DNA from: Defluviitalea saccharophila
Lineage (GTDB): Bacteria > Bacillota > Clostridia > Lachnospirales > Defluviitaleaceae
Assembly: GCF_038396635.1 (NCBI RefSeq)
Contig: NZ_CP121687.1
Location: 1,860,001-1,924,000, forward strand
Length of the DNA: 64,000 bases
Direction: 5' to 3'
The notes below the pieces were generated by a model. That model had not been told where the DNA came from, ran no database searches, and worked only from the letters and a program-made list of their open reading frames with translations. The position numbers and the translations under genes are program-made. Positions 4,245 through 50,011 of the stretch are shown here, one piece after another; positions within the stretch are counted from its first letter, which is position 1; every line of letters starts with the position of its first letter.

Positions 4245-4284
4245 ACTTATCTCCCTTCCTCTATTTTAAAGTGTCTATCATATA

Positions 4285-5790
4285 TTAAAGCTTTTCATTA
4301 ATGGATTTTAATGATGGGTATATTTCTTTATAAATATTGTATTTTTCCTGATACAATTGACTTGTTTTTTCATTGGGCATATAAACATCTTTAATAAAGA
4401 CGGTTTTTTCTACCCCTTCGTCTATGGAAGCATAGCCTCCTACCCCACTGCCTGCTAATATGGCTGCACCAAGGCAAGCTGCTTCTCTCACCTTTAGGGT
4501 AGCTACCTTACAGCCTGTAATATCTGCTTTGATTTGCATCCACTCTGGGGACTTCGCAGCTCCCCCTACACATCTTAGTTCATTAATAGTAATCCCTGCA
4601 TTTCTCATGGTTTCTAAATTAATCTTAAGTTCATAGGATAAACACTCAAGGATCGCTTTTACAAGATCATGTCTTGTAGATGCCATGGTCAATCCAAGAA
4701 TGGCTCCTTTTGAGTTTAAATCGCAATAAGGGGTACCACTGCCGTTAAAATGAGGCAGAATCATAAGAGGCCCTGGACCTTTTGGGGCTTTCTCAATCAT
4801 TCTTGCATAGGCATCTACGCCCATTTCTTCTGCTTCTTTTACTTCAACAGCGCCAAAATTGTCTCTGTACCATTTAAATAAAATACCGCCAATATGGTTT
4901 AAGGAAAAACTAAAATACATATCTTTTTTAGTGTGAATATAGCAAGGATAATATCCATTATACATATAATCGTTGCACATGGGCTTTGAAAATGCCGTTG
5001 ATAATACTTCTGCAGTTCCGTGAGAATCTATAGCTATATTCTCTCTTATAACCCCTGCCCCTAAGGCAGCACAGGTTTGGTCGTGACCTCCTGTTACTAA
5101 AACCATATCTTTCGATATACCAAACTCCTCAGCTAAAGCTTCATGGATTGTACCGACAACTTCTCCTGAAGGTACCGCCTTTGAGAGCTGCTCTTCCGAA
5201 ATCCCAAGTTTATCTAATATTTCTTTAGACCATTTTCTTTCTTTTAAATCAAAGGCCATGGTTCTTGATGCCATGGTATAGTCTATAACCGGTTCTGCCC
5301 CCAGCTTTGAGAGTATAAAATCGGCATAGGTCATAAATTTGTAGGTATTTTTAAAGATATCCGGTGTGTTTTCTTTAAACCATAAAATCTTTGTCAGGGA
5401 ATTCATTGGGTGGGGGCGCATGCCTGTCTGATTAAAAATTTCTCTGTCCCCAAAGATTTCCCCACACAGCTCGGCTTCTTTTACCGTACGATAGTCCATC
5501 CCAAGAAGGGTATTATGAAGCGGGTTTAAACGAATGTCTACCGGAATGACTGCATCGCCCTGTACGGATAAACTTAAGGCTTTTATCTCTTTTATACCGC
5601 TTTCTTTAATTGCTTTTTTAATCACATATTTGGTTAATTCCCATACTCTACTGGCATCCTGTTCTCCATAGCCCGGTTTTTCACAGATAACATCGTACTC
5701 ATGAAAACCATAGCCCTTTATGTTCCCATCTAAATCAAAAACTGCCGCCTTACAGCCGGTCGTTCCTACATCTAATCCAATAAGATACAT
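4285..5790 (-). CDS. FGGY-family carbohydrate kinase
   Basis: A 501-residue FGGY kinase of the COG1070 type. The N-terminal phosphate loop is GLDVGTTGCKAAVFD; the hinge region has VTGGHDQTCAALGAG; the C-terminal domain has CVGGAAKSPEWMQIKADITG and ACLGAAILAG. It would phosphorylate a ketose or polyol using ATP. The ATG at 5790 follows a GAGGTG ribosome site. It lies in the catabolic operon between the fucose-isomerase-like gene, from which it is separated by a strong hairpin at 5809-5868, and the RpiR regulator. Substrate unknown; possibly the ketose made by the isomerase-like protein just upstream. Confidence 0.88.
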   Translation of the reverse strand: MYLIGLDVGTTGCKAAVFDLDGNIKGYGFHEYDVICEKPGYGEQDASRVWELTKYVIKKAIKESGIKEIKALSLSVQGDAVIPVDIRLNPLHNTLLGMDYRTVKEAELCGEIFGDREIFNQTGMRPHPMNSLTKILWFKENTPDIFKNTYKFMTYADFILSKLGAEPVIDYTMASRTMAFDLKERKWSKEILDKLGISEEQLSKAVPSGEVVGTIHEALAEEFGISKDMVLVTGGHDQTCAALGAGVIRENIAIDSHGTAEVLSTAFSKPMCNDYMYNGYYPCYIHTKKDMYFSFSLNHIGGILFKWYRDNFGAVEVKEAEEMGVDAYARMIEKAPKGPGPLMILPHFNGSGTPYCDLNSKGAILGLTMASTRHDLVKAILECLSYELKINLETMRNAGITINELRCVGGAAKSPEWMQIKADITGCKVATLKVREAACLGAAILAGSGVGGYASIDEGVEKTVFIKDVYMPNEKTSQLYQEKYNIYKEIYPSLKSINEKL

Positions 5791-5883: not shown

Positions 5884-7299
5884 TTATTCTCCTCTTAACC
5901 AAGCCTTAATTTCTTCTTCTTTGTCATCATAAAAATCTGGTTTTAATCCAGGGATATATTTGCATGCTTCATAAATTACCGGCATAATATTGCCATGGAT
6001 TCCTACACAGTGGTGAACATATGGTCCTGTTACCAGTTTGTCCTCTAATCGGGTCCAGTTTTCTACTTCAATCCAGAGGTATGTTCCGATGGTAAATGGT
6101 CCTTCAATGCCTTTAGCTGTTCCAAGAAGGATGGAATATTCGCCGTTATCTCCATCAAATCTTAAAATTGAAATTTCTCCGCCTTTAATTTCAGCTACAA
6201 CTGCCCCTGGGCAATGTTCTTCGAAGGCAAATGGACGGCTTAATTTTGCTTTTCCTTTTGCAAGAGATATAGGCCATGGACCACAGTGTTGAAGCAACTC
6301 TCCATTTTCATTTTCAGGATGCCTTACGGACCAGTCTGCAAAGAATGTCGGTGTCTTGCCCATTCCTGCTGCCTGTGCCATCACTGCAGTAATCGCTCCG
6401 TGAATATCTGTTTCACAAACCACTGGAATACCTTCATCGGTCATTAAGGAGTTTGCCATACATGGCATTACTTTAAGTTCATCTTGAAGGGAATTCCAGC
6501 ATTGGATTGCTATCGCATTACAGCTGTATTCTTTAGCATAACGGGACATTGTAACTTTAATGGCAGCTAATTTTGCTACTGCATCCTCTGGAACACAGAT
6601 TTCTACGTTATTTTTCAAGTATTCTACGACTTCTTGTACTTCTTCGTCATTTTCACTTATAAGCTTTTTAACACGACTGGTAAATTCAGACATTGTAATA
6701 GGTCTTAATTGAATGCCGAATCTTTCTAAAAGTTCTCCTTCGTTGCACATCATCGTCCAGAAATCTGCCGGACGAGTGGAAATTTGAAGAATACGAATCT
6801 TTCTAAATTCTTTTACCACATTGGCTGCTGCGATGAAATTCTTTAAACCTCTTTCAAAGGCTTCGTCTTCTAATTCGCAGTTTGGAAGATAGGTAAAAGG
6901 AAGTTTAAATCTTCTAAGCACTTTTCCAGTTGCAAAAAGACCGCATTGGGTATCACGAAGTCTGGAACCGTCTGCAAGAGGTGCTTCATCCCTTGGTCCC
7001 CAAAGTAAAATAGGAAGTTTTAATTCATTTGCCACTTTGCATACCAAATCTTCTGTACCGAAGTTACAGTGTGGAAAGAATAATGCGTTTACTTTAGCGT
7101 TTTTAAATTTTTCTACTACCTTTGCTACGTCCTCTTCTGTATGAAGAAGTCCTTCATCATTGACGTCATCTATATCTACAAAATCCACATTAAGCGCTCT
7201 TAATTTTTCTTGAATAAGCTTTTTGTACTTTAGCGCGTCTTCTTTACTGAAAATAAATCTTCTTGTTGGTGCCATTCCAATTAAAATCTTGTGATCCAT
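5884..7299 (-). CDS. L-fucose/L-arabinose isomerase-family protein
   Basis: A 471-residue protein of the COG2407-like fold (two Rossmann-type N domains and a C-terminal isomerase domain). The N-terminal half has LFFPHCNFGTEDLVCKVA and LPILLWGPRD, typical of this family; the middle has CNAIAIQCWNSLQ and VVCETDIHGAI, where metal-binding acidic residues of fucose isomerases lie; the C-terminus has HHCVGIHGNIMPVIYEA. The reaction is probably an aldose-ketose isomerisation, but the family is broad and includes members without known function. It follows the SAF-domain oxidoreductase by 34 bases and would feed the downstream FGGY kinase. The ATG at 7299 has AAGGGGG upstream. Confidence 0.8.
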   Translation of the reverse strand: MDHKILIGMAPTRRFIFSKEDALKYKKLIQEKLRALNVDFVDIDDVNDEGLLHTEEDVAKVVEKFKNAKVNALFFPHCNFGTEDLVCKVANELKLPILLWGPRDEAPLADGSRLRDTQCGLFATGKVLRRFKLPFTYLPNCELEDEAFERGLKNFIAAANVVKEFRKIRILQISTRPADFWTMMCNEGELLERFGIQLRPITMSEFTSRVKKLISENDEEVQEVVEYLKNNVEICVPEDAVAKLAAIKVTMSRYAKEYSCNAIAIQCWNSLQDELKVMPCMANSLMTDEGIPVVCETDIHGAITAVMAQAAGMGKTPTFFADWSVRHPENENGELLQHCGPWPISLAKGKAKLSRPFAFEEHCPGAVVAEIKGGEISILRFDGDNGEYSILLGTAKGIEGPFTIGTYLWIEVENWTRLEDKLVTGPYVHHCVGIHGNIMPVIYEACKYIPGLKPDFYDDKEEEIKAWLRGE

Positions 7300-7333
7300 G
7301 GTAAGTCCCCCTTTTATTTTTAATGGTGAATCA

Positions 7334-8623
7334 TTAACGGTACATTTGGTCTTGGATTCTTCTTAATTGAAGTAAAACGGAATTTTCGTTTAACTCAACC
7401 ATATCGTAAGTGATGATTTCATCTGTTTTTACATCGCATTTTAAAACTGCACCCTTTGCCAGGCCGATTGGAAGCATATTGCCTTCTCTTGCTACTTCTG
7501 CAGTTTCAATGCTTGCTCTGTAGCAGTATTCGCCGATACCGTCCAATACTTCACCAGCTTTTAAATCTTTTTTGGCTACGGTGATACATTCGGAAGTAAG
7601 CTTTTTCATTGGGTGTGCTGTAGATTCTCCGTAAAGTACTGCCTGAGCTGCTGTAATTGGCGTTTCTATGCTGCATAGGTGGTAAGGTCTAAAGAGTAAA
7701 TAGTTTGGTCCTTCTCCCATGTCTCTTTGTACCAAACCTTCAATGAGACGAGGATGATCGGTTGTAACGATAACAAATACCCCAGGATTGATATTGCCTA
7801 TACCAAAGTCTACTACCCCTTCTTTTTCAAGGATTCCGCCCTGGTCTTTTCTGCAAAATACTTTTGTTAAGTCTTCTATATTACAAGTTGGACCATGCAT
7901 ACCTCTAACATCCGGAACTAAGCCTGTTGCATTGGATACTGCCGCCATTTCAATCATTGTCTTAGAGCCGTCTACAAATTCGCAAAGCATTTTGGCACTC
8001 ATATTTCTTGCTTCTGCTTTTTCTTTTAAATCATCAGGATTTGCATAAAGATTTAGTGGATTGTTCTTTCCTTTTCCTGCCGCAACTACCTTAAATCCTA
8101 AGGCTTTAGCAAAACGATACACTTCGATAATGGAGCCTGGCTCGTCCCCAGCCGTTAAAGAGTACACAATGCCTGCATTTTCTGCCATTTGTCTTAAGAT
8201 GGGTCCAACGGTAATGTCACATTCAACGTTCATCATTACGATATGCTTTTTATGATTGATACAGTCAAGGGATACTCTTGCGCCCATTTCAGGGGAACCT
8301 GTTGCATCGATGACAACTTGTATTGGTTTTGCTTCTATAGCAATTTTATAGTTTGTTGTTGCAACCTTTTTGCCTTCTAAAATAGCCTTTTCTGCTTCTA
8401 ATAAATCGTCTGTTGTAATAACTTCGCCCTTATATCCTGCAATACGATAAGCCTCTACCGCTGTTTTGGTGTCCAAATCTACAACAATAGGAATTTCCAT
8501 ACCCACCATACATTCCACCTGGGCTACGATATCCTTACCCATTTGTCCTGCACCGATTAAACTAACGAGTACTGGTTTGCCTTGTTTTTGCAAGTCCTCT
8601 AATTTCTTGTCTATTTCGTACAT
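7334..8623 (-). CDS. NAD(P)-dependent oxidoreductase with C-terminal SAF domain (predicted homoserine dehydrogenase-like)
   Basis: A 429-residue protein resembling COG4091. The N-terminus has a Rossmann loop VSLIGAGQMGKDIVAQ (about residues 20-36), the middle a homoserine-dehydrogenase-like region with AGDEPGSIIEVYRFAKALG, and the C-terminal 100 residues resemble a SAF domain. It is unlikely to be a threonine-pathway enzyme because it lies within sugar genes and lacks amino-acid biosynthetic neighbours. Members of this group are found in sugar and polyol gene clusters, where I infer oxidation or reduction of a sugar or sugar-acid intermediate. The start is supported by AAAGGAGG. It sits 16 bases after the alcohol dehydrogenase gene. 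Confidence 0.75.
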   Translation of the reverse strand: MYEIDKKLEDLQKQGKPVLVSLIGAGQMGKDIVAQVECMVGMEIPIVVDLDTKTAVEAYRIAGYKGEVITTDDLLEAEKAILEGKKVATTNYKIAIEAKPIQVVIDATGSPEMGARVSLDCINHKKHIVMMNVECDITVGPILRQMAENAGIVYSLTAGDEPGSIIEVYRFAKALGFKVVAAGKGKNNPLNLYANPDDLKEKAEARNMSAKMLCEFVDGSKTMIEMAAVSNATGLVPDVRGMHGPTCNIEDLTKVFCRKDQGGILEKEGVVDFGIGNINPGVFVIVTTDHPRLIEGLVQRDMGEGPNYLLFRPYHLCSIETPITAAQAVLYGESTAHPMKKLTSECITVAKKDLKAGEVLDGIGEYCYRASIETAEVAREGNMLPIGLAKGAVLKCDVKTDEIITYDMVELNENSVLLQLRRIQDQMYR

Positions 8624-8638
8624 GATTATCCTCCTTTT

Positions 8639-9688
8639 CTATCTCTCCCATGGTTTTACGATGACTTTTAATGCTTTGCCTTGCTGTGCTAATTTCATGC
8701 CTTCAGGTATATGATCTAAAGTTACTTTTTCTGTAACATATTTCTTTGCACTGATTTTCCCTTCTGCAATATATCTAAGAGCTTCCTCTAAGCCAATGGA
8801 AGGATATGAAAAAGCCCCTACCACAGTAAGTTCATTATAATGAATCATATTGCTGTTTAATTCAGTCATTGGAGCAGTTTTTGGAACACCCCCAAAAAGA
8901 ACTACCCTTCCTCTTTTTCTCACCATTTCTACCGCCTGCTGCTGGGTTTTGGTTACCGGATTCGCACATATAACGATATCCGCTCCTAAACCATTGGTGA
9001 GTTTTAATACTTCTTCTACTGGATTTTGACTTCCGGCATCAATAATATGATCCGGATTAAACTGAGGCACGGAATCCAGTCTTGTTAAGCCGACCATAAT
9101 AATTTTTGAAGCACCTCTTGCCCTTGCAACTTCAATATGAATGCATCCGATAGGGCCGTCACCGATAATTACAACCGTATCTCCTTCGGTTACATTATTG
9201 TATTTTTGGCAAGCGATAACGGAAGATGCCGGTTCTCCTAAGGCTGCTTCATCGAAACTTAGGCCTTCTGGAATAGGCTCCACAAAGCCCCTTGATAATA
9301 CAAACCCGGGAATATAAATATATTCTGCAAATCCTCCAGGCCAGTGGGTTCCTAACATTTTGTGATCCACACAAAGATTAACTAACCCTCGTTTGCAGTA
9401 GTAGCATTCTCCACAACTTACATCGGGAGCAAGGGCCACCCTGTCTCCAACTTTAAAACGAGTTACCTTGCTGCCTGCTTCGTAAACCGTACCCGCAATT
9501 TCATGCCCCATGATTTGGCTTTTTACACCGTGTCTTAAACCAATGTGAAAATTTCTGATGTCTCCTCCACAAATCCCACAGGATTCAACTTTAATTAAAA
9601 TACCATCTTCTTCACATTCAGGAATTGGTACCTCTCTTACTACCATATTTTCGATACTTTCAAATACGGCTGCTCTCATTGTACCCAT
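8639..9688 (-). CDS. Zinc-dependent medium-chain alcohol/sorbitol dehydrogenase
   Basis: A 349-residue MDR-family enzyme expected to oxidise a polyol or sugar with NAD(P). Catalytic zinc ligands are visible as Cys37 in CGICGGD and His62-Glu63 in GHE; the structural zinc cluster is Cys92, Cys95, Cys98 and Cys106. The nucleotide-binding loop VVIIGDGPIG lies near residue 170. The first ATG (9688) follows GGGAGAG at good spacing; a second ATG three codons later is possible. It lies 16 bases after the SIS-domain isomerase gene in the same operon. It may turn a polyol substrate into the ketose or act on an intermediate; which one cannot be told. Confidence 0.88.
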   Translation of the reverse strand: MGTMRAAVFESIENMVVREVPIPECEEDGILIKVESCGICGGDIRNFHIGLRHGVKSQIMGHEIAGTVYEAGSKVTRFKVGDRVALAPDVSCGECYYCKRGLVNLCVDHKMLGTHWPGGFAEYIYIPGFVLSRGFVEPIPEGLSFDEAALGEPASSVIACQKYNNVTEGDTVVIIGDGPIGCIHIEVARARGASKIIMVGLTRLDSVPQFNPDHIIDAGSQNPVEEVLKLTNGLGADIVICANPVTKTQQQAVEMVRKRGRVVLFGGVPKTAPMTELNSNMIHYNELTVVGAFSYPSIGLEEALRYIAEGKISAKKYVTEKVTLDHIPEGMKLAQQGKALKVIVKPWER

Positions 9689-9704
9689 TGCTTTCTCTCC
9701 CTTC

Positions 9705-10307
9705 TTATTTTTTAAGTAATCTCTCGCCTACTGCTCCTCCGGGATGAATAATTAAAAACTGCTCTTTTGTATAATTGGTGTAATGCATGAGCGCAATGCT
9801 TATTGCGTCAAATACTGAAATAACTGCCATGGTACTTGCTGTAGCAAGCATATTAAAAGGACATGGCTCTTTATCTACTTTTACTTTTAGTATGATATCT
9901 GCTTCTTTTCCCAGGAGTGACTCAGGATTTTCTGTTACGCCAATGAGCTTTGCTCCTTTTGCTTTGCAGGCAGGAATTAAATTTGCAATTTCTAATGTAT
10001 TTCCGCCCTTTGAAATTAAAATAAGCACATCGTCTTTTTGCAGCATCCCCAAAGCCCCATGGACTGCATCTGAGGGATTCAGATAACATGCTGGTCTTTC
10101 AACACAGCATAGGGAATGAGCAATCTTTTTTGCTGCAGCAGCGGATGTACCACAACCTGCCACTAATACTCTTCCTTTACAATCTCCTATTGTCTTGACT
10201 ACTTCTAATACTGTACCCTCGTTCATTGTTTGTGTTAGCTTTTGAACAGAAGCTGCTTCTATTTCCCATGTGTTTAAGATCCCTTCCCACAACTGCTTAT
10301 CTTCCAC
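9705..10307 (-). CDS. SIS-domain sugar-phosphate isomerase (arabinose-5-phosphate isomerase-like, no CBS domains)
   Basis: A 200-residue SIS protein. GTG start at 10307 with AGGAGG 8 bases upstream. The fold carries VLVAGCGTSAAAAKKIAHSL, ILISKGGNTLEIANLIPACK and the C-terminal HPGGAVGERL, which matches the HPGGxLGxRL signature of KdsD/KpsF/GutQ arabinose-5-phosphate isomerases. Those enzymes carry two CBS domains that are absent here, so this is the bare catalytic domain. Likely reaction: interconversion of a pentulose (or ketose) phosphate and an aldose phosphate. First gene of the catabolic operon driven by the promoter and 28-base element at 10410-10476. Confidence 0.8.
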   Translation of the reverse strand: MEDKQLWEGILNTWEIEAASVQKLTQTMNEGTVLEVVKTIGDCKGRVLVAGCGTSAAAAKKIAHSLCCVERPACYLNPSDAVHGALGMLQKDDVLILISKGGNTLEIANLIPACKAKGAKLIGVTENPESLLGKEADIILKVKVDKEPCPFNMLATASTMAVISVFDAISIALMHYTNYTKEQFLIIHPGGAVGERLLKK

Positions 10308-10409
10308 TCAAAACACCTCCTATTGTATTTCATTTTCATTTTTTAATTTCAAAAACAAAAATTCGTAGCTAAAAAAATATTTAGATGCTTAACTTTCTTT
10401 TGTGAGTTG

Positions 10410-10438
10410 ATTATAGCACCATACATACGCCATTACAG
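10410..10438 (-). promoter_or_regulatory. Promoter of the SIS-isomerase catabolic operon
   Basis: Minus strand: perfect TATAAT (10415-10410), 17-base spacer, poor -35 CTGTAA (10438-10433). A good -10 with a weak -35 is typical of an activator-dependent promoter; the putative activator site begins 10 bases upstream. Confidence 0.65.
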
Positions 10439-10448
10439 TGAGTAGGAT

Positions 10449-10476
10449 ATTAGGTGTTAAGGTGTACTTTTTTTAG
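10449..10476 (-). promoter_or_regulatory. Candidate response-regulator operator, copy 1
   Basis: Plus-strand reading: ATTAGGTG, two variable bases, then AAGGTGTACTTTTTTTAG. The copy at 17919-17946 is identical in 26 of 28 bases (only the two variable bases differ). Read on the minus strand, it contains two CACCT direct repeats followed by a gap of exactly 10 bases to the -35 box in both promoters. AraC-type regulators usually bind such direct repeats. The best candidate is the regulator encoded at 19102-20736. Confidence 0.7.
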
Positions 10477-10484
10477 GTTAGGCA

Positions 10485-10513
10485 TAAAAAAATAAAACCC
10501 TAAAAAGGGTTTT
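10485..10513 (-). terminator. Intrinsic terminator after the family-1 binding-protein gene
   Basis: AAAACCC and GGGTTTT form a short stem just after the stop codon on the minus strand, followed by ATTTTTTT. It ends the transport operon before the promoter region of the catabolic operon. Confidence 0.75.
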
Positions 10514-11776
10514 TTAATCATCTGGTTTATTGAATTGTTCTAAAAGCTCCTCGGCTGTAATATTGCCCATAAGCAATTCTTTTACTTTACGGTCGATACT
10601 TTTTTGTTTTGCACTATCTAATAAATTGGTCTGAACCGGTATGCGCTTTGCCTTACGCAAGGGTTCCCAAAGCTCATAATATTTCACATTATCCGTATTA
10701 ATTCCTTTTATAGGCGGCACCGTCATAGTAATATCCGTATACACCTGGGCTGCTTCTTTGGAGCTTAGGTACTCAAGAAATAACTTTGCCTGCTCTCTTT
10801 TTTCTGAGCCTGAAAAAATACCGATTAGATTATCGCCATTACTTCCAGGTACTTCTAATACTTCTCCTTCTTTATTATATGGGATGGGAAACACCCCTGG
10901 ATCACAAACTTTTTCTATGTCATACTGTATTAAGTTGGTGGACCAGTCCCCCATAATAATCATGGCGGCCTGTCCATTGACAAATTCTAAAAATGCCTGA
11001 TGATAAGTTAATTCTAAGCTGTTTTCCTTTAAATATCCTTCTTTTATAAAGTTCTCTATATCCTTTAAAACATCCAATAATTCTTCGTCATTCCATGATA
11101 CATTGCCATACTGAAGGTTTTTACTCCAATCGGGATGACTTTTAAGAAAATCAAAAAATCGTATACTTAGAATTAATCTGGCATGATAATCATCTCTCCC
11201 ACCCAGAACAATGGGGGCAACATCTTTAGATTTTAATATCTTGCACACCTCGAGAAATTCTTCATAATTTTTAGGTATATCCAGATTGTATTTTGAAAAT
11301 ATGATTTTGTTGTACCATATGCCATACACCCAGTCCCTATAGACAACGGCATATTCTCTTTTCTGAAGGCTCATACTTTTAATTGCTTCTCTTACTTTAG
11401 GATGATAATTCTCTAAAAAAGGTTGATCGCTTAAATCTACCAATACATTCGTTAATACAAATTCTTCATAATCTGCAGGCATAATGCCCATCACATCGAT
11501 ACGTTCACCGGAGGATATCCTGGACTTTAGTAAATCGGAATAATGTTCTCTATCGATTTGCTCATACTCAATTTCGATATCCGGATATTTGCGGTTAAAC
11601 TGTTCAAATATTTTTTCAGGAAACGGAGTCCAATGAATAAAATGGATCGTTGAAACCTGCTTTTCTTTATTATTAACCTTCATATCAAATTCCGAAAAGA
11701 AAGGATTAAACACACCAATAAATCCCCATACCAATAAACCTATTAAAATCAGATATAATACCATCCATTTTTTCAT
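10514..11776 (-). CDS. Membrane-anchored extracellular solute-binding protein, family 1 (orphan)
   Basis: A 420-residue family-1 (MalE-like) binding protein. An N-terminal hydrophobic segment (about residues 4-26) lacks a lipobox cysteine, so it probably stays as an uncleaved membrane anchor. The body has IHFIHWTPFPEKIFEQFNRK, a QAAMIIMGDWSTNLI segment and a C-terminal NITAEELLEQFNK, usual for this family. No MalF/MalG-type permeases are nearby; the operon instead encodes a ribose-type importer, which normally uses a different class of binding protein. It might deliver a ligand to a sensor, or to permeases elsewhere. It follows the M24-fold gene by 87 bases and ends at a terminator. Confidence 0.82.
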   Translation of the reverse strand: MKKWMVLYLILIGLLVWGFIGVFNPFFSEFDMKVNNKEKQVSTIHFIHWTPFPEKIFEQFNRKYPDIEIEYEQIDREHYSDLLKSRISSGERIDVMGIMPADYEEFVLTNVLVDLSDQPFLENYHPKVREAIKSMSLQKREYAVVYRDWVYGIWYNKIIFSKYNLDIPKNYEEFLEVCKILKSKDVAPIVLGGRDDYHARLILSIRFFDFLKSHPDWSKNLQYGNVSWNDEELLDVLKDIENFIKEGYLKENSLELTYHQAFLEFVNGQAAMIIMGDWSTNLIQYDIEKVCDPGVFPIPYNKEGEVLEVPGSNGDNLIGIFSGSEKREQAKLFLEYLSSKEAAQVYTDITMTVPPIKGINTDNVKYYELWEPLRKAKRIPVQTNLLDSAKQKSIDRKVKELLMGNITAEELLEQFNKPDD

Positions 11777-11863
11777 GAGCTTCGCCCCAGACCAATGAAA
11801 TCATTTAATGTTCTTATTATATCATACTATATCCCCTGCTCCAATTTCCTTTATGGCTCTGTC

Positions 11864-12970
11864 TTATCTTTCCATAATGATTGGAAGTTCATAGGTATGG
11901 TTATTGGCAGTATAGCTTTTTGTCTTCCAATACCCTGCAAGAGACATAAGCTCTATTTGATTATTGATATTTAGGGCAAGCTCTGCACTTTTTGTTCCTG
12001 CAATGGTGATGAACCATTCATAAGACTGGTAGTTTTGTAGTTTTGCACTCTGATCTAAGCATAATGATGCATTGGCAACCATATATCCTGTAATCCCACC
12101 TTGGAAATGGTTACGCCATTCTTCTTCATACCCCAGTTCTTTATATAGTTTTTTCTCTGCTTCCAATATATCTTTAAAATAAGTGCCTTCTTTGCACATA
12201 GAGAGTACATGGGCTTCAATGGTACAAGCTGCCTCATACTTATGTGTAATTTCTAAAGAAGGCTTGCCAAAGGAAATCAAACGGCTAATATTGGCATGGA
12301 GTCCCCACTTTTTAATCGAAGGACTAATGAATACATAGTGATCAATTTTTCTCTCCGTTGGAACAGGGTGGCGATATTTTACGGGCCTTTCATCTGCACC
12401 AATTAAAATAACATCAGGAATAATCCCCTTTTGTCCAAACTTACCCATAAGCATGCCTTCTACTTCCATTTCAGTCATACCCGGTTCTATTTCAAGGGCT
12501 GTACTGGTTAAGATTTCGTCCACTTCTTTGCCAAGGATTTTGTATTTTTCTATCTCTGAAATTGTAAGGGGATAATGCAGGTTATAAATGGCATGAAGAT
12601 TATATTCTGAGCCCTTTAGCGGAAAATCGGATATTACCTTTTTACCCTTGATGAGCTCTTCTAATTTCTCTTCTTTACTTTGTTCATACCATCTAAGAGG
12701 AATATAGTCGTACCCTAAGGGGCTTAGGACTTCATCCATAATTCTTGGACCATCCATCACCTGGGATATGCAAAATTTCTTCTCCTTAGTAATGAATAGG
12801 TAGGAAAAGCCCAGTTCAGTTGACCAGATTACCCGGCTGTTGCCTCCTCCGGTAATCCAGGAGAAATTATCCTGTCTGCCAATAATCATGCCGTCATAGC
12901 CATTCTGATCAAGGAATTTATAAATTCTTTCTTCTTTTTCTTTTACTTCTTTTAATATATCAAACACCAT
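11864..12970 (-). CDS. M24-family (creatinase/aminopeptidase fold) protein, probably non-peptidase
   Basis: A 368-residue protein with the creatinase N-terminal domain (about 1-130, with YDGMIIGRQDNFSWITGGG) and an M24 pita-bread domain (about 140-365, starting near EIEKYKILGKEVDEIL and ALEIEPGMTEMEVEG). M24 peptidases bind two metals through Asp, Asp, His, Glu, Glu; where the two Asp ligands are expected, this protein reads VFISPSIKKWGLHANISRLI, with Ser and Asn. It is therefore likely a metal-free M24 relative, as creatinase is, or an inactive one. Its place after a sugar permease gene suggests a role with the imported compound; the function is unknown. Confidence 0.75.
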   Translation of the reverse strand: MVFDILKEVKEKEERIYKFLDQNGYDGMIIGRQDNFSWITGGGNSRVIWSTELGFSYLFITKEKKFCISQVMDGPRIMDEVLSPLGYDYIPLRWYEQSKEEKLEELIKGKKVISDFPLKGSEYNLHAIYNLHYPLTISEIEKYKILGKEVDEILTSTALEIEPGMTEMEVEGMLMGKFGQKGIIPDVILIGADERPVKYRHPVPTERKIDHYVFISPSIKKWGLHANISRLISFGKPSLEITHKYEAACTIEAHVLSMCKEGTYFKDILEAEKKLYKELGYEEEWRNHFQGGITGYMVANASLCLDQSAKLQNYQSYEWFITIAGTKSAELALNINNQIELMSLAGYWKTKSYTANNHTYELPIIMER

Positions 12971-13009
12971 AACTATCCCATCCTTAGTCTTTTTTATTCC
13001 AAAACATAT

Positions 13010-13045
13010 AAAGCTATAAAACCTTTAATTAAGTTTCATAGCTTT
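13010..13045 (-). other. Short hairpin between permease and M24-fold genes
   Basis: AAAGCTAT (13010-13017) and ATAGCTTT (13038-13045) form an 8-bp stem without a clear T-run. It may be a weak terminator or an RNA processing site within the transport operon. Confidence 0.3.
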
Positions 13046-13062
13046 AATAAAACTCTAAATTC

Positions 13063-14052
13063 TTATAAATTTTCATTTCTGATATTTCTTCTTTGTAATT
13101 TGGTGATTTGTGTTGTTCTTATACTATCCAGGAGAACCGCTATAAAAATAATACCTGCCGAAATCATAGGCTGAATGTATAAATCCACTTTCAAATACAC
13201 CAATCCTGCCTGAATCATTTGTATCAGTACGGTTCCTATAACTGTTCCCGGGAATACAGCCCCAAGGCCTCCAAACATACTGGTTCCGCCAAGGATTGAA
13301 GCTGAGATTGCATCAAATTCACTGCTTTCACCAAAGCCTGCATTGACAATACCCATCTGTGCAACGGAGATAATGCCTCCAATAGCCGCCAACACACCGC
13401 AGATGATATATACGATGGCAAGTACCTTTGTTGTGTTGATGCCTGCCTTTTTAGCTGCTTCAATATCATTCCCTACTGCATAGATTTGCCGTCCAAGGGG
13501 GGTTCGTTTTAACAAAATATGAGAAGCTAAAACAATAATCGCAAAGAAAATGATTGGCAATGGGATTCCTAAAACCCTTGCATATCCTATTTTCATAACG
13601 CTTTCGGGTAACATAATGCTTTGGGATTTGGTCATTAAAAGTGCTACACCCCGTCCTGCAACCATTGTACTTAATGTCGTAATGAATGGCAGGATTTTTA
13701 ATTTGATAATGACAAAGGAATTAATCATTCCCATCACTGCACCAACGCAGACTCCAATAAATAATGCAAGCCAAACAGGAAAATGATAATTTTGAATTAA
13801 TAATCCAGCAACTGCTGCTGAAAGATACATGGTCGCTCCGACAGATAAATCAATTCCAGCCGTTAATAATACAAACGTCATTCCTACTGCTGTAATCCCT
13901 ATATATGAAGCGCTGGTTGCAATGTTCTCCATATTTTTATAACTAAAGAAACTGGGAGAAAGGATGCCAAAGATAATAAAAATGGTGACAAACAGTACAA
14001 TAGGCATGTTCTCCATTAATGTGATAATAAGTTTATTTTTTTGATTTGCCAT
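13063..14052 (-). CDS. Ribose-type ABC transporter permease (second permease)
   Basis: A 329-residue RbsC-like polytopic membrane protein with about 8-10 hydrophobic segments. Family hallmarks include TAGIDLSVGATMYLSAAVAG near residue 65, RTPLGRQIYAVGNDIEAAKKAGI near 200 and AISASILGGTSMFGG near 255. It would form, with the other permease at 15589-16668, a heterodimeric channel energised by the ATPase encoded between them. The ATG at 14052 is preceded by GGGAGG. The product lacks periplasmic domains, as expected for this class. Confidence 0.92.
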   Translation of the reverse strand: MANQKNKLIITLMENMPIVLFVTIFIIFGILSPSFFSYKNMENIATSASYIGITAVGMTFVLLTAGIDLSVGATMYLSAAVAGLLIQNYHFPVWLALFIGVCVGAVMGMINSFVIIKLKILPFITTLSTMVAGRGVALLMTKSQSIMLPESVMKIGYARVLGIPLPIIFFAIIVLASHILLKRTPLGRQIYAVGNDIEAAKKAGINTTKVLAIVYIICGVLAAIGGIISVAQMGIVNAGFGESSEFDAISASILGGTSMFGGLGAVFPGTVIGTVLIQMIQAGLVYLKVDLYIQPMISAGIIFIAVLLDSIRTTQITKLQRRNIRNENL

Positions 14053-14078
14053 TTTTTGTTCCTCCCTTCATGAAGTAT

Positions 14079-15587
14079 TTAAGCGCCTTGTCTAAATGCT
14101 ACCCGTAAAATACTTTGATTATTAAATTCACTGGTTTTAAATTCTCCAACAATCTCCCCTTGACTCATAACAAGAATTCTGTCACAGGTTCCCATTAATT
14201 CTTCTAACTCAGAAGAGATCATTAGAATACCTTTGCCTTCTGCTGCCAATTCATTGATAACAGAGTAAACCTCATATTTTGCACCGACATCTATGCCTCT
14301 TGTAGGTTCGTCCACAATGAGAATCGATGGCTCCGCCATAAGCCATTTTCCAATAACGACTTTTTGTTGGTTTCCTCCACTTAAGCTTTTTGGTGCATAT
14401 TTTTTAATGTCTCCGCTTTTTAATCTTAGGGTTTTTGCTATTTTATCCACTGCGTTAAACATGTCATTCCATTTTAGAAATTTAAAAGGAGGCTTCGTAT
14501 AGGAGGGCATGGCTGCAAGGCTCATATTCTCAAAAATAGAGGTTTCTAATAATAGCCCTTCATTTTTTCTGTCTTCTGTTACAAAAGCTACTCCATTTTT
14601 AATACTGGTCATAGGAGAAGTTTTATCGATCTTATTGCCATTAATCATAATTTCGCCTTTTTCATAGGGATCAAGACCATAAATAATTCTTGCCAGTTCA
14701 CTTCGACCGGAACCCATGAGTCCGAAAATCCCTAAGACTTCTCCTTTTTTAAGTTCAAAGTTTATATCTTTAACAATTCCACTTTGAGAAACTCCTTTAA
14801 CGACTAAAGCGGATTCTTCCTGTGGTTTTGACATTCTCTCTGGATACAATTGATTAATATCCCTTCCTACCATAGAAGAAATCATTCGATCAATTGTGAA
14901 TTCTTCTTTGGCACCGGAATCTGTTACCTGTCCGTCCCTAAGGACTACAATTTCGTCGGAAATATTCATAACATCGTTAAGAATATGGGATATATATATA
15001 ATCGCTTTGCCTTGTTCCCGTAAGTTGTTAATAATTTCAAAAAGTCTTTCGGTTTCTCTGTTGGTAAGAGAAGTAGTAGGTTCATCAAAAATAATGATTT
15101 TAGGATCTGTACTTAAGGCCTTGCAAATTTCTACTAACTGTCTTTCTCCGGGAGATAGTTTTTCAACCAACGTATCAGGGGATATATCTAATTCAATGGA
15201 TTTTAATAATTCTTTTGTTTTTTCTTTGATAACGCTCTTTTTAATTAAAGGTACTTTTGCTGTAGTAGGAAAATTCGTAATAAACATATTGTCTGCAATG
15301 CTTAAATTGGGGAATAAATTCAGTTCCTGATGGATAAATGCAATTCCGGCTTCCATTGCATCCCCCGGTCCTTTAGGGCTATAAGGCTTGTCTTCCATTT
15401 TCATAGTGCCTGCTGTTGGTGGGAAGATGCCTCCGATAATATTCATCAATGTTGATTTCCCTGCACCATTTTCTCCTATTAAACTAAGGACTTTTCCTTT
15501 CTTTACCTTAAAGTTAACTCCCTTTAAGACTTTAACATCAAAGAAGCTTTTATCGATGCCTTGAAGTTCTAAAACCACATCATTCAT
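14079..15587 (-). CDS. Sugar ABC transporter ATP-binding protein (double ATPase, RbsA-type)
   Basis: A 502-residue fused double ATPase. The first half has Walker A GENGAGKST, signature LSPGERQLVEI and Walker B IIIFDEPTTSL; the second half lacks a classical Walker A but has GLMGSGRSELARIIYGLDP, signature LSGGNQQKVVIG and ILIVDEPTRGIDVGAK. The start is ATG at 15587, one base after the stop codon of the upstream permease, with AGGTG before it; this implies translational coupling. A longer frame from 15623 would overlap the permease and adds no family sequence. It powers import by the two permeases. Confidence 0.93.
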   Translation of the reverse strand: MNDVVLELQGIDKSFFDVKVLKGVNFKVKKGKVLSLIGENGAGKSTLMNIIGGIFPPTAGTMKMEDKPYSPKGPGDAMEAGIAFIHQELNLFPNLSIADNMFITNFPTTAKVPLIKKSVIKEKTKELLKSIELDISPDTLVEKLSPGERQLVEICKALSTDPKIIIFDEPTTSLTNRETERLFEIINNLREQGKAIIYISHILNDVMNISDEIVVLRDGQVTDSGAKEEFTIDRMISSMVGRDINQLYPERMSKPQEESALVVKGVSQSGIVKDINFELKKGEVLGIFGLMGSGRSELARIIYGLDPYEKGEIMINGNKIDKTSPMTSIKNGVAFVTEDRKNEGLLLETSIFENMSLAAMPSYTKPPFKFLKWNDMFNAVDKIAKTLRLKSGDIKKYAPKSLSGGNQQKVVIGKWLMAEPSILIVDEPTRGIDVGAKYEVYSVINELAAEGKGILMISSELEELMGTCDRILVMSQGEIVGEFKTSEFNNQSILRVAFRQGA

Positions 15588-15588
15588 C

Positions 15589-16668
15589 TTAAGCACCTGC
15601 CTTTCCGCTTTGCTTTGAAACAATGCGAATTCTTGTTACATCAATGAATGCTGCTATAAGAATCACAATCCCTTTAACGATATTAATGGTGAAGTAGGAA
15701 AGATTAAGTAAGTTTAGAGTATTCGCAAGTAAAGTAAAGAAAAATACTCCAAGGAGCGTCCAAACCACTTTTCCTTTTCCTCCAAACATACTTGTTCCGC
15801 CGATTACTGTTGCACCTATAACATCCATTAAGATTGTATTTCCCATAGTGGGCTGACCAATCCCGAGTCTTGAAGAATACAGTACAGAAGATACTGCTGC
15901 ACAAAAGCCGCTGAACATATAGCCATAAATAATTACTTTATCTGTAGGGATACCAGAAACTGCAGAAGCTTTTTGGTTCGTACCTACAGCATAAAACCAT
16001 CTTCCTAGCATCGAATGACTTAAAAAGAAATGAACAATGATTGCAAGGATGAGCATAATGATTAAAGAATATGGAATAAATCCAAAGCCCTCTGTTCCTA
16101 TAGCTTTATAACCTTGAGGCAAATTCATAATATTTTGGGATTTGGTTAAATAAATTGCAAAGGCCAGGAAAAACAATTGTGATACCAATGTAACCATAAA
16201 GGGTGTCATTTTTAATTTAGAAATAGCTACCCCATTTAAAAATCCAATCAATACGCCCACCAATAACATCACAATAATTGCTGCAGGAACTGCTAAAGGA
16301 CTTCCGGCTAATGGTCCTCCGTTTTCACTTACAAGCGTTCCCCAGATGGGAGCGTTTTTAAATAATTCCGGGTTAAAACCAGTAGACATAATCATTGCAC
16401 CAATAACACTTGTAAGACCTATAATAGATACTTGAGATAAATCAATTAAACCAAGTATTAAAATAACGGTTTGCCCCATGGCTACTGCAAACAGCGGCCA
16501 CATATTTGAGAATACATTGCTTAAATTACGCATGGAACCAAGGCCTGGGACAAAGGGCACTAGAATTAAAAAGTAAACGATGGTTAAGTAAAGTACAAAG
16601 TACTCGGACATCAGCATCTTTTTAAATATAGAGCCTGATTTTTTTGATGAAATTTTAGTAAGATCCAC
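15589..16668 (-). CDS. Ribose-type ABC transporter permease (first permease)
   Basis: A 359-residue RbsC/XylH-like permease with about 9-10 membrane spans. Landmarks include ILGLIDLSQVSIIGLTSVIG near residue 70, SMLGRWFYAVGTNQKASAVSG near 220 and DVIGATVIGGTSMFGG near 285. Compared with the second permease it has a longer loop near residue 100 (FKNAPIWGTLVSENGG). It lies about 90 bases after the lipoprotein gene, from which it is separated by a hairpin at 16708-16730, and is coupled to the ATPase gene downstream. Confidence 0.92.
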   Translation of the reverse strand: MDLTKISSKKSGSIFKKMLMSEYFVLYLTIVYFLILVPFVPGLGSMRNLSNVFSNMWPLFAVAMGQTVILILGLIDLSQVSIIGLTSVIGAMIMSTGFNPELFKNAPIWGTLVSENGGPLAGSPLAVPAAIIVMLLVGVLIGFLNGVAISKLKMTPFMVTLVSQLFFLAFAIYLTKSQNIMNLPQGYKAIGTEGFGFIPYSLIIMLILAIIVHFFLSHSMLGRWFYAVGTNQKASAVSGIPTDKVIIYGYMFSGFCAAVSSVLYSSRLGIGQPTMGNTILMDVIGATVIGGTSMFGGKGKVVWTLLGVFFFTLLANTLNLLNLSYFTINIVKGIVILIAAFIDVTRIRIVSKQSGKAGA

Positions 16669-16707
16669 TTTTTGTCCTCCTTTACTTAGGTTTTATTCTT
16701 AAAATAG

Positions 16708-16730
16708 AGGGGGCAATTTCTTGCCCCTTT
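16708..16730 (-). terminator. Hairpin between binding lipoprotein and permease genes
   Basis: GGGGCAA and TTGCCCC pair around a 4-base loop, followed on the minus strand by CTCTATTTT. Similar hairpins after binding-protein genes often let the binding protein be made in excess over the permease by partial termination or mRNA protection. Confidence 0.6.
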
Positions 16731-16757
16731 ATTGACTTATGATTGTATTCATTTTAA

Positions 16758-17819
16758 TTAGTTTTCACGAATTTGGTTGCCCCACATATCCATTCTTTTC
16801 TCAGTTAAGTTGGCTTGAGTTAAAGCAAATCCTGGGTCTTGAATCCATTCTTTAGGTGTTTTTTCTCCAGCTTCAATTGCTTTTAAGATCGCATTCATTG
16901 CCGCTTCAGATTCAAATTTTAAGTCTTGAACACCTGTTGAATCCACATACCCTTCGTCTATTAAACGTCCTGCTGTTGAGTCTCCATCTAAGCCGCCCAT
17001 GATGACATGGCCTTCTTCTCCAACTTTTTTCCATTTTCCTAAAGGTTCTAATACAGCTTTAATCTGTGGGAACATGAAGTCTGAACATGTGTATAAGAAA
17101 TCTACTTCTGGATTCGCCTGCATTGCACTTTGTAAGTTTGCAAGAGCAGTTGCTCCATCCCATTTTGTTGGTACTTCTATAACGTCATTAAAGATATCAG
17201 GATTCTTTTGAATTGCTTTGTAGAAACCATCTTTTCTGGCAATAGCATTTGGGTCTCCTAAGTCTCCAACCATGATTAATGGAGTTAATTTTTTGCCAGT
17301 TGCTTCAAATTTCTTTTGTGCTTCAGCTACCATATGATCAACAGCTGCTTCAGCGATAACCGCATTATCTGCTACAACTACGATTGCATTGTTGGAATCG
17401 TTGCTTGGTGGTCTATTAAAAATGGCAATTGGCACACCAGCTTTGTTTGCTTCATCAATAATGGTTAAAGCACTTTCTCCATCTTGAGGAATAACGATGA
17501 TTCCGTCAGCCCCTTGAGCAATAGCGTCTTTTACTTGCTCTAATTGTTTATTGGCATCTTCGTTTGCATTTCTTTCAATCACTTCAATACCTTGTGCGGT
17601 TAAAGTTTCAATGATTGTTTTGTGTGCTGCTACCCAAAATTCAGTTTCTAAATCTTGAAAAGCAAAAGCAATTTTTAATTTCTTATCCTTGTTTTCAGTA
17701 CCACTTGTTTCTGTCTCTGCCTGATTGGTGCTGCCAGTTTTTTGCTTTGCTCCACATGCGGTCAATGCGGAAATCATTAAAATTGAAACTAAGAATAATG
17801 CGAAAAACTTTTTCATCAT
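16758..17819 (-). CDS. Sugar ABC transporter substrate-binding lipoprotein (Peripla_BP_4 type)
   Basis: A 353-residue ribose/xylose-type binding protein. The signal peptide ends in a lipobox, ISALTACG, so the mature protein is lipid-anchored at Cys22. The body has LKIAFAFQDLETEFWVAA, GADGIIVIPQDGESALTIID and VPIAIFNRPP, standard for this fold. It is the first gene of the transport operon, expressed from the promoter at 17880-17908 under the 28-base element. The start uses the first of two adjacent ATG codons, with GGGGAGG upstream. It would deliver the sugar to the two permeases. Ligand unknown. Confidence 0.92.
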   Translation of the reverse strand: MMKKFFALFLVSILMISALTACGAKQKTGSTNQAETETSGTENKDKKLKIAFAFQDLETEFWVAAHKTIIETLTAQGIEVIERNANEDANKQLEQVKDAIAQGADGIIVIPQDGESALTIIDEANKAGVPIAIFNRPPSNDSNNAIVVVADNAVIAEAAVDHMVAEAQKKFEATGKKLTPLIMVGDLGDPNAIARKDGFYKAIQKNPDIFNDVIEVPTKWDGATALANLQSAMQANPEVDFLYTCSDFMFPQIKAVLEPLGKWKKVGEEGHVIMGGLDGDSTAGRLIDEGYVDSTGVQDLKFESEAAMNAILKAIEAGEKTPKEWIQDPGFALTQANLTEKRMDMWGNQIREN

Positions 17820-17879
17820 AAAACCTCCCCTTTAAATTTGTTTTTTGAATGATGAATCATTGCCTTGCTTTGTGTACTC

Positions 17880-17908
17880 ATTCTATTATGAAAGGGGGTC
17901 TTATTCAA
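17880..17908 (-). promoter_or_regulatory. Promoter of the sugar transport operon
   Basis: Minus strand: TTGAAT (17908-17903), 17-base spacer, TAGAAT (17885-17880). It lies 10 bases from the 28-base element, the same geometry as the catabolic operon promoter at 10410-10438. Confidence 0.65.
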
Positions 17909-17918
17909 TGTGACAATA

Positions 17919-17946
17919 ATTAGGTGCGAAGGTGTACTTTTTTTAG
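17919..17946 (-). promoter_or_regulatory. Candidate response-regulator operator, copy 2
   Basis: Same 28-base element as at 10449-10476, with CG instead of TT at the two variable bases. The identity over 26 bases and the identical spacing to the promoter contrast with the unrelated sequence around both sites. Confidence 0.7.
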
Positions 17947-19101: not shown

Positions 19102-20736
19102 TTATTGTTCTTTTTCTTGTAAATACTTTTCTCTAAACTGTGAAGGTGTATAATTATAATGTTTTGTGAATACTTTTCCAAAATATCTGGAATCCGTATA
19201 ACCGACCATTTGAGAAATTTCATAGGTTTTTAACTTGGTGTTAAGAAGTAAGTCCTCTGCTTTTTTAAGGCGAACCTGAGTAATATATTCTGAAAATCCT
19301 ATACCTGTTTCCTGCTTAAATAATTGGCTTAAATAATTGGCATTCATATAATATTTATTGGATAGCTGCACCAGAGTGATATCTGTATAATAATACCTGT
19401 CGATATACTCCTTGATATCATCAATCACACATTTTCCATCACTTCTTCGTATGTCGCAAATACAATTAGAGATAGTCTTGATCTTATCCGTAATGTAATT
19501 TTCTATTTCTTGAATGGAAGTACATTGGTTAAAATCATCTTCTAACAAATAATCTTCTTTAAAAATATTCTTCCAGCAAATGCCTAACTCTCCCATGACT
19601 TTGCTTAGTGTAATGATGATATCCATCCATACTGTTCTGACATTATCATAATTGATGTTCTTTTCTTTGATTTCTTTAAAAATCATCCCCACGATCTCCA
19701 GGGCCTTCTTCTCATCATTGGAATTCAAAGCAGAAAAAAGGCTTACCTTATCTTGTTCAGAGATAAAATAGGTAATTCTGTTATTGGGATCAAATTCTTC
19801 AAACCAAGTAATAGTAGGCTTCTCTAATATAAGATTTTGCATCACTGCCATATGGGCTTCTAAATAAGCACTGTTTAATTGCTCAAGGGTATTGTAATTT
19901 TTACTGATACCAATGCGAACATCGACCTTTAGAAGATTTATAAGCTGAGCATTAAGCTTTTCACAGGCAGATTTAATATGGTTCTCAATACTGCTTTTTT
20001 CTCTCGTATTTAAAATAATGCAGATTTCATTTTGGTTTTTATAGTTTTCAAAAACTACTATATGTCCTAAGGTGGATAATATTTCTTCTGCGATATTCAT
20101 TATGGTAAACTTAATAAGTTCATAATCTCTTAAAGGTTCAAATTCTGGAACTTCATGTACAGCTTTAATATAAAGAGTAAGCATTCTAAAGTTGGAATAC
20201 TTGAACTGAACATTAACGGTTTGAAGCATAGAAATTAGATAAGAAAGATCTTCATCCCCTGTGTATGTGACAAAGTCTGTTAAATATTTATTTCTGATAT
20301 AATTGATATAGCTTTTTTTATACTTTTTTAATTGAATCTCATATTGGTGTTTACTTTTTTTTTCTTCAACTTTTTTTTGAATTTTTTCAATGATATTTTT
20401 TAAATTTTCATTTTCTATAGGCTTTAGTAAATATTCTTCCACATGGAGTTCTATTGCTTTTCTTGCATATTCAAATTCTTGATATCCGCTGACAATGACA
20501 AATTCTATGTCTCCATGGATTGCTTTCACTTTTTCTATAAACTCAAGCCCGTCCATCTCCGGCATACGAATATCTGTAATGATCAGGTCCGGTTGATTTG
20601 CCGCAACCATATCCAATGCTTCTATGGCATCTGATGCCTTTCCTACCACTTCAACATCAGAAAACATCCTATTTAATTTAGCAGCAATACCATTACGTAT
20701 AATTTCTTCATCATCAACGATCATGACTCTTAACAT
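19102..20736 (-). CDS. Response regulator with C-terminal AraC-type DNA-binding domain (YesN-like)
   Basis: A 544-residue regulator. The N-terminal receiver domain (1-120) has acidic pocket VDDEE, phospho-acceptor Asp55 in LIITDIRMPEMDG and Lys in YLLKPIE. A middle region (about 150-430) is of the poorly defined type seen in YesN-like proteins and may dimerise. The C-terminal 100 residues form an AraC/XylS domain with VQLSNKYYMNANYLSQLFK and ISQMVGYTDSRYFGKVFTKH. The start codon lies inside the end of the kinase gene (23-base overlap) with GGGGG upstream, so translation is coupled. Probable activator of both sugar operons through the 28-base elements. Confidence 0.93.
   Translation of the reverse strand: MLRVMIVDDEEIIRNGIAAKLNRMFSDVEVVGKASDAIEALDMVAANQPDLIITDIRMPEMDGLEFIEKVKAIHGDIEFVIVSGYQEFEYARKAIELHVEEYLLKPIENENLKNIIEKIQKKVEEKKSKHQYEIQLKKYKKSYINYIRNKYLTDFVTYTGDEDLSYLISMLQTVNVQFKYSNFRMLTLYIKAVHEVPEFEPLRDYELIKFTIMNIAEEILSTLGHIVVFENYKNQNEICIILNTREKSSIENHIKSACEKLNAQLINLLKVDVRIGISKNYNTLEQLNSAYLEAHMAVMQNLILEKPTITWFEEFDPNNRITYFISEQDKVSLFSALNSNDEKKALEIVGMIFKEIKEKNINYDNVRTVWMDIIITLSKVMGELGICWKNIFKEDYLLEDDFNQCTSIQEIENYITDKIKTISNCICDIRRSDGKCVIDDIKEYIDRYYYTDITLVQLSNKYYMNANYLSQLFKQETGIGFSEYITQVRLKKAEDLLLNTKLKTYEISQMVGYTDSRYFGKVFTKHYNYTPSQFREKYLQEKEQ

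Positions 20737-24995: not shown

Positions 24996-25006
<11 letters not shown>
24722..25006 (+). CDS. ArsR/SmtB-family transcriptional regulator
   Basis: A 94-residue winged-helix protein. The HTH reads VSYMQNCIGLPQSTVSQHIS, then KLKAAGIIEGVRSGLEITYKV, a standard ArsR layout. Three cysteines (about residues 23, 34 and 42) lie around the first HTH helices; they could bind a soft metal or react with thiol or persulfide species, but the CxC metal motif of ArsR/CadC is absent. The ATG at 24722 follows GGGGTG. It is a single gene converging on serS. No transporter lies nearby to suggest its inducer. Confidence 0.88.
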
Positions 25007-26577
<1,571 letters not shown>

Positions 26578-49984: not shown

Positions 49985-50011
49985 AGTATTACTCCTTTAT
50001 TTTTAAATTTT

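Follow-up and report, generated by a model that had tools for sequence, protein, structure and literature searches.

In Clostridium beijerinckii, a xylose-type binding protein, a kinase and a YesN regulator (XylFII-LytS-YesN) reportedly control a sugar ATP-binding cassette (ABC) operon. Here, we describe a 28-base element that occurs twice in a 64,000-base stretch of the Defluviitalea saccharophila genome (hereafter "the window"; positions 1860001–1924000 of a 3,014,560-base single-contig genome, G000), once before a transporter operon and once before a catabolic operon. Comparison across related genomes makes it highly probable that this element serves as operator for the YesN/AraC-type response regulator encoded next to it (19102–20736), the output component of a sugar-sensing system composed of a binding protein, a kinase and that regulator. 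The kind of system is already known, and the operator is a well-supported further example of it. No published description of this gene cluster was found in the literature searched; as far as that search shows, the definition of an operator for this cluster family, its fixed geometry across several genera and the presence of a chemoreceptor target in two genomes are new.

The nearest described arrangement is CuaDSR of Ruminiclostridium cellulolyticum, a cellobiose system with a second binding protein, a kinase and a YesN/AraC-type regulator of 538 amino acids, which, in the parts of the two reports that deal with it, induces the neighboring ABC transporter and a catabolic gene, while its own operon is constitutive (PMC10384115, PMC5663094). 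The window encodes the same set on the minus strand, in a putative sensor operon that carries no copy of the element: a sensor histidine kinase (22570–20714), a regulator of 544 amino acids (20736–19102) and a solute-binding protein (19061–18012). The kinase combines dCache_1, HAMP, His_kinase (PF06580) and HATPase_c domains, and thus joins an extracellular domain to His_kinase and HATPase_c, as expected of a three-component system. The regulator consists of a receiver (residues 4–116), a long linker and an AraC-type helix-turn-helix (HTH) region (451–536). The solute-binding protein (Peripla_BP_4, with a hydrophobic N-terminus) adjoins the regulator gene, is distinct from the transporter's own binding protein and is proposed to be the ligand-sensing partner of the kinase. 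Unlike the system described here, CuaDSR comes with no operator sequence in the text of PMC10384115 that was available, where neither "direct repeat" nor "binding site" appears. A parallel for the operator is found in Caldicellulosiruptor bescii, for which the portion consulted reports tandem repeats with large spacers upstream of the promoter elements for three of five AraC-type two-component regulators, inferred to be activators (PMC8579813). This likeness is one of description, not of motif sequence, and the word chemotaxis is absent from the main text of that paper, whereas the regulon in the window genome includes a chemoreceptor gene.

All genes concerned lie on the minus strand and are transcribed in the order sensor, transporter and catabolic operons, then an aldolase gene set. 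The transporter operon would run from 17819 to 10514 and the catabolic operon from 10307 to 3357, as deduced from gene spacing, and the aldolase gene set begins at 3187 and runs on outside the window. Copy 1 of the element (10449–10476) stands before the catabolic operon and copy 2 (17919–17946) before the transporter operon. An earlier note on this DNA had claimed that the two are identical in 26 of 28 bases, and direct readout bore this out: on the minus strand, 10476–10449 and 17946–17919 read CTAAAAAAAGTACACCTT(AA/CG)CACCTAAT, with the common form CTAAAAAAAGTACACCTTnnCACCTAAT and the sole differences at nn. Its claims of equal promoter spacing and unrelated surroundings also held. At both promoters, 10 bases separate the end of the element from the -35 hexamer and 17 bases the -35 from the -10 hexamer (33 bases from element end to -10), and the identity of the copies stops at the element edge while the -10 spacing is kept. 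The -35 hexamers are poor matches to TTGACA (copy 1, CTGTAA, 10433–10438, 3/6; copy 2, TTGAAT, 17903–17908, 4/6), so that the firm observation is the constant distance to the -10 hexamers (copy 1, TATAAT, 10410–10415, 6/6; copy 2, TAGAAT, 17880–17885, 5/6).

Within the window, the full pattern with up to 3 mismatches matched only these two places (0.00 expected from 100 shuffles). A search of both strands for repeated 28-mers (8-mer seeds, skipping seeds that occur more than 400 times) returned 23 pairs with at least 26 identities, of which 21 were registers of three local inverted repeats and the other two were the element pair read on either strand; no other dispersed pair was found at this level. 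The three inverted repeats (24997–25030, 27874–27913 and 50011–50038) are strong and are likely terminators. When only a loose 15-base core was sought, 17 matches with up to 3 mismatches were found against 11.65 expected, a number reached by 4 of 100 shuffles, and enrichment was not clear.

The earlier note had proposed a search of the whole genome with the motif. This search recovered, besides the two known sites, a third copy 6.4 kb outside the window, with its core at C1:1853533–1853550 and core, spacing and -10 together spanning G000:C1:1853494–1853549. The spacing is identical, with 10 bases to TTTACT and 33 to TACAAT, and 43 bases separate the end of the -10 from the start codon (ATG) of a gene for a methyl-accepting chemotaxis receptor of 571 residues (4HB_MCP_1, HAMP and MCPsignal domains). 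Although the 18-mer TACACCTTnnCACCTAAT with up to 3 mismatches matched 33 places in the genome versus 50 for the reversed control, only three of the 33, i.e., copies 1 and 2 and the third copy, had 0 or 1 mismatch, and the search of the 3.01-Mb genome revealed no fourth copy this close. Requiring the core, 34 bases and TANAAT gave three perfect matches genome-wide versus 4.4e-5 expected (third-order Markov model, 81 kb of the region); at up to 3 mismatches, one further match appeared, with 3 mismatches, versus 4 in the control. All three perfect sites are confined to 24.5 kb, and each precedes a gene or operon belonging to one neighborhood. Further targets in the genome were also sought with a CTAAAAAAA/CTAA/-10 pattern at up to 2 mismatches and were not accepted, the 9 matches standing against 8 in the control; copies 1 and 2 matched perfectly, and the remaining seven, the third copy among them, had 2 mismatches.

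We then compared ten stretches totaling 842,026 positions, from the window genome and nine relatives. Orthologs of the regulator were found in G579, of another family (40% identity), and in G753, of a third family (32%), as well as in G764 and G766, two of the three other genomes of the genus of G753. A search for the DRL oxidoreductase of the catabolic operon in 397 genomes of the family of G753 matched seven, five of them new (G899, G835, G916, G1076 and G937). When the window proteins were mapped, the kinase, regulator, binding proteins, transporter and enzymes occurred together in G579, G753, G764, G766, G835 and G1076, and in all six a sensor-side binding protein likewise lies near the kinase–regulator pair. 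The short G899 contig holds the kinase, regulator and catabolic genes, and the gene for the sensor-side binding protein was not on it. In G916 and G937, the SIS, alcohol dehydrogenase (ADH), DRL, FGGY and RpiR genes stand beside another transporter and without a kinase–regulator pair; searches of these two whole genomes returned only paralog-level regulators (25–28% identity and 143–166 bits, versus 292–414 bits for orthologs). The words YLSQLFK and RYFxx(V/I)FxK, which we take to be the recognition helices of the first and second HTH motifs of the regulator, are kept in all eight orthologs compared. A public metagenome-assembled genome labeled Candidatus Epulonipiscium sp. encodes a protein 100% identical to the regulator over its 157 available residues.

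Two copies of CTAAAAAAATC lie 23 bases from each other at the transporter promoter of G753, and the first of them stands 61 bases ahead of the -10 TATACT. CTAA at the window sites shows the same 23-base interval, and its first occurrence likewise lies 61 bases ahead of the -10: copy 2 comprises an upstream half-site, CTAAAAAAAG (17937–17946), in a register kept in the relatives, and a downstream half-site, CTAATTATTG (17914–17923), and copy 1 comprises CTAAAAAAAG (10467–10476) and CTAATATCCT (10444–10453). We derived a 24-point promoter score from the window sites and G753 (9 points for each half and 6 for the -10), and the geometry was fixed from the same sites before the regions upstream of the transporter and SIS genes of G579, G764, G766, G899, G835 and G1076 were viewed. 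The arrangement of two CTAAAAAAA halves, 23 bp apart and with the first 61 bp before the -10, was present at the transporter promoters of all six relatives in which these were readable (G579, G753, G764, G766, G835 and G1076), the five seen after G753 scoring 21–23; the two G579 halves depart from CTAAAAAAA at one and two positions. Scanning all 842,026 positions gave 13 matches at a score of at least 19, every one of them just before a gene of the cluster: seven before transporters (the window's included), two before SIS genes (window and G835), three before aldolase sets (G899, G835 and G1076) and one before a chemoreceptor gene (G579). In 30 dinucleotide shuffles, the mean at this threshold was 0.47 and the maximum 5, and none reached 21, where 6 matches were observed. 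The halves are 22 bp apart at the three aldolase promoters and 23 bp apart elsewhere. The G579 receptor (HAMP and MCPsignal, with no 4HB match) is only 29% identical to that of the window genome over the signaling part, which indicates that the site precedes a different receptor gene in that genome.

These counts bear on the possibility that the three copies are recently copied, functionless sequence and that the A-rich pairs in the relatives merely reflect AT bias. The region has 35% GC and the consensus is A-rich; moreover, among 392 genomes of the order searched with core plus -10 at up to 2 mismatches, perfect sites occurred only in G000 and G519, which are the same species, with three in each. 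(Of the 13 genomes with any match, the remaining 11 had one each, in every case with 2 mismatches, and these we attribute to chance; matches to the core with 1 mismatch also occurred in 24 other relatives of 146.) However, all 13 scan matches fall at cluster promoters in one register, versus at most 5 matches in any of the 30 shuffles, and the identity of the three copies stops at the element while the -10 spacing persists in unrelated flanks. We therefore regard this explanation as very improbable.

The earlier note had also pointed to two CACCT words as the direct repeat. Both words are present, yet the relatives do not preserve the 8-bp period between them: CACCTnnnCACCT was matched at no more than 7 of 10 letters in eleven promoters of relatives, compared to 10 of 10 in the window. 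CACCT was rejected as the recognition unit because relatives with an orthologous regulator keep CTAAA pairs at 22–23 bp. The regulator probably recognizes a pair of CTAA(A) half-sites spaced 23 bp, of which the downstream one adjoins the -35; the two head-to-tail halves thus lie roughly two turns of the helix from each other. AraC-type activators commonly have a promoter-proximal half-site that abuts the -35, and the second half-site here begins 38 bases before the -10, abutting the -35 in a direct-repeat layout of this type. A related box has been predicted for the pneumococcal YesMN-type system TCS07/RR07, which functions in glycan use: the relevant section gives the motif CTWWWWWWAG, 39–60 bases before the start site (PMC11034029), and an earlier paper, in the part at hand, found no consensus (PMC7075642). 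The upstream halves CTAAAAAAAG of copies 1 and 2 match this low-complexity, predicted box at 10 of 10 positions and that of the third copy at 8 of 10, and the downstream halves at the three sites of the window genome match at 9, 7 and 7 of 10. The pneumococcal motif is a single box, with no 23-bp tandem arrangement stated in that section, in contrast to the operator described here. Simple as the box is, the likeness suggests that the half-sites of the two systems may be of one type.

The distribution of the element also speaks to the identity of its reader. The element precedes at least one cluster operon in all eight stretches with the kinase–regulator pair, and the two of the ten that lack the pair (G916 and G937) lack the element before the shared SIS operon, where they score 12 and 10. 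The reading put forward in the earlier note, a single regulon under the adjacent AraC-type regulator, is thus well supported by comparison. RpiR (3357–4244), LacI (L010:5458–6522, outside the window) and TetR (22823–23500) regulators are also encoded nearby, and sugar operons are often under regulators of the RpiR or LacI families. These three families bind inverted repeats, however, unlike the direct repeat of the element. In addition, no RpiR gene was detected in the stretches of G753, G764 and G766, which carry the element, yet one is present in those of G916 and G937, which do not; LacI was mapped only in the window genome and G579, and the aldolase promoter has LacI-type sites in place of the element. 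It is therefore improbable that one of these regulators reads the element, and RpiR was rejected as its reader. Our preferred reader is the YesN/AraC-type regulator; what the sequence itself shows is the sites, their spacing, the third target and the conservation of the element alongside this regulator.

The earlier note had seen no site upstream of the aldolase and sensor operons, and this holds in the window. Since CTAA is missing from the halves at the window aldolase promoter, its score of 18 was put down to chance and it was not accepted as a target. In its place, the region at 3213–3290 carries two inverted AAACCGATTT LacI-type sites, and LacI-type AAACCG(A/G)TTT sites are found at the aldolase promoters of both the window genome and G579. 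Of the relatives, G899, G835 and G1076 have no mapped LacI gene, and their aldolase promoters carry a CTAAA pair instead; the aldolase operon is thus outside the regulon in the window genome and inside it in these three relatives. Neither an autoregulatory site before the kinase (best scores of 13–16 in 8 genomes) nor an element before the gene for the sensor-side binding protein (12–14) was found above background.

Several observations weigh against the assignment to the YesN/AraC-type regulator, or limit its reach. The ten stretches are not independent, as G753, G764 and G766 belong to one genus and G835 and G1076 to another. Regulator orthologs were not found in G001 or G002 (78% complete), other genomes of the same genus as the window genome, at E 1e-80 or 1e-68, and there is consequently no short-distance footprint within the genus. 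SIS promoters score 20 in the window, 19 in G899 and G835 and 18 in G1076, but only 17–18 in the genus of G753 (G766, 18; G753 and G764, 17), where 1.7% and 0.8% of 3,000 random 270-base windows, true sites included, reach 17 and 18, respectively. The G579 SIS promoter lacks the element altogether (score 13), and membership is therefore not uniform. A long inverted repeat in G579, with 21-base arms at C19:48911 and 48941 (span 48911–48961), lies ~110 bases before this SIS gene and overlaps its probable promoter; it is perhaps an RpiR-type operator. The A-rich consensus alone gives the chemoreceptor site of the window genome only 18, a score at which shuffles average 2.9 matches and six other chance-like matches occur, one of them at the window aldolase promoter; the site was accepted because its near-identical core is shared with copies 1 and 2. 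Finally, the idea that operator likeness tracks regulator likeness was dropped: out of 28 bases, the G579 transporter site shares 19–20 with copies 1 and 2 at 40% regulator identity, the sites of G835 and G1076 share 18–19 at 32–33%, and those of the G753 group share 14–16.

How might the regulator act at these promoters? Across the eleven promoters tabulated among those found, the -35 hexamers match TTGACA at only 1–4 of 6 positions and the -10 hexamers match TATAAT at 4–6 of 6. Since weak -35 boxes are combined with good -10 boxes and a half-site abuts the -35, we infer activation by the phosphorylated regulator rather than repression; binding, phosphorylation and a ligand we likewise infer. 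An extracellular ligand, sensed through the second binding protein and/or the dCache domain, would activate the kinase; the regulator, once phosphorylated, would bind head-to-tail to the two CTAA(A)-rich half-sites 23 bp apart and, from the downstream half at the -35, compensate for the poor -35 boxes and recruit RNA polymerase. Three promoters would be switched on in this way, those of the ABC transporter, the first catabolic operon and the chemoreceptor gene, so that uptake, catabolism and probably movement toward one substrate may be turned on together. A protein bound at a half-site abutting the -35 could also block polymerase, and the regulator might then repress, or its unphosphorylated form might repress until relieved by phosphorylation. 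Yet a weak -35, a good -10 and a fixed upstream site are typical of activator-dependent promoters. Moreover, in the portions of the two reports considered, activation was inferred for two-component regulators of the AraC type whose sites lie upstream of promoters (PMC8579813), and CuaR up-regulates its transporter operon (PMC10384115). Repression thus appears improbable, and activation remains the preferred mode of action.

The transporter operon encodes, from its first gene, a solute-binding protein (16758–17819), a sugar ABC permease (BPD_transp_2; 15589–16668), an AraG/RbsA-like sugar ABC ATPase (14079–15623) and a second permease (13063–14052). It ends with an M24-peptidase-like protein (11864–12970) and a second binding protein, SBP_bac_1 (10514–11776), whose roles are not obvious; relatives of the two occur in seven and six of the nine related stretches, respectively. 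The catabolic operon opens with a SIS-domain sugar-phosphate isomerase (KpsF/GutQ-like; 9705–10307), followed by a zinc alcohol/polyol dehydrogenase (8639–9688), the DRL (DXR-II-like) oxidoreductase with a SAF domain (7334–8623), an isomerase-like protein (5884–7299), an FGGY sugar kinase (4285–5790) and the RpiR-type regulator. The isomerase-like protein falls far below the cut-off of the sulfoquinovose isomerase model (126 of 700 bits) and is a paralog of a Fucose_iso_C protein at L010:8792–10210.

The DRL oxidoreductase has relatives 72–85% identical in the nine other stretches, each beside SIS, ADH and FGGY genes. Its place in a sugar-catabolic operon suggests an undescribed, perhaps branched-sugar, pathway. 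In the part of the source that bears on this point, its best-known relatives, DXR-II, stand in for deoxyxylulose phosphate reductoisomerase, making methylerythritol phosphate, and the related DLO families are uncharacterized (PMC3847144). Methylerythritol phosphate is a branched product. A DRL-type oxidoreductase, a label compatible with either DXR-II or DLO membership of the window protein, thus hints at an unusual substrate. In G579, the aldolase set (L137:2821–3466, 3471–5552, 7177–7446 and 9227–10378) includes genes for three microcompartment shell proteins (two BMC and one EutN/CcmL) together with those for an iron alcohol dehydrogenase, a PTAC phosphotransacylase and an aldehyde dehydrogenase, and the pathway there is probably encapsulated. 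As to the LacI-type sites of the window, AAACCGATTT words occur at 3213–3222 and 3281–3290, inverted and flanking the aldolase promoter, at 766–775, inside the 5' part of an open reading frame (225–830) and before the likely RpiB start, and at 26492–26501, with no evident context; the first three (3213, 3281 and 766) probably belong to the LacI regulator at L010:5458–6522.

It is tempting, if quite speculative, to think of the regulon as devoted to a hitherto undescribed route by which an unusual sugar or polyol, perhaps a branched-chain one, is broken down through the DRL oxidoreductase, a class II aldolase and two each of FucI/SftI-like isomerases and FGGY kinases, with one regulator and one operator for chemotaxis, uptake and breakdown, and to imagine that a CT(A/T)6AG half-site code is common to YesN-type regulators as far apart as those of pneumococcus and of this order. 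To our knowledge, few binding sites have been defined for sugar-sensing regulators of this class, and the operator described here offers a testable one, with half-site geometry and promoter register. The link between a chemoreceptor gene and this switch, seen in two genomes that belong to different families, predicts that the attractant is the substrate of the transporter, and identifying the inducer would name the transporter, the pathway and the receptor together.

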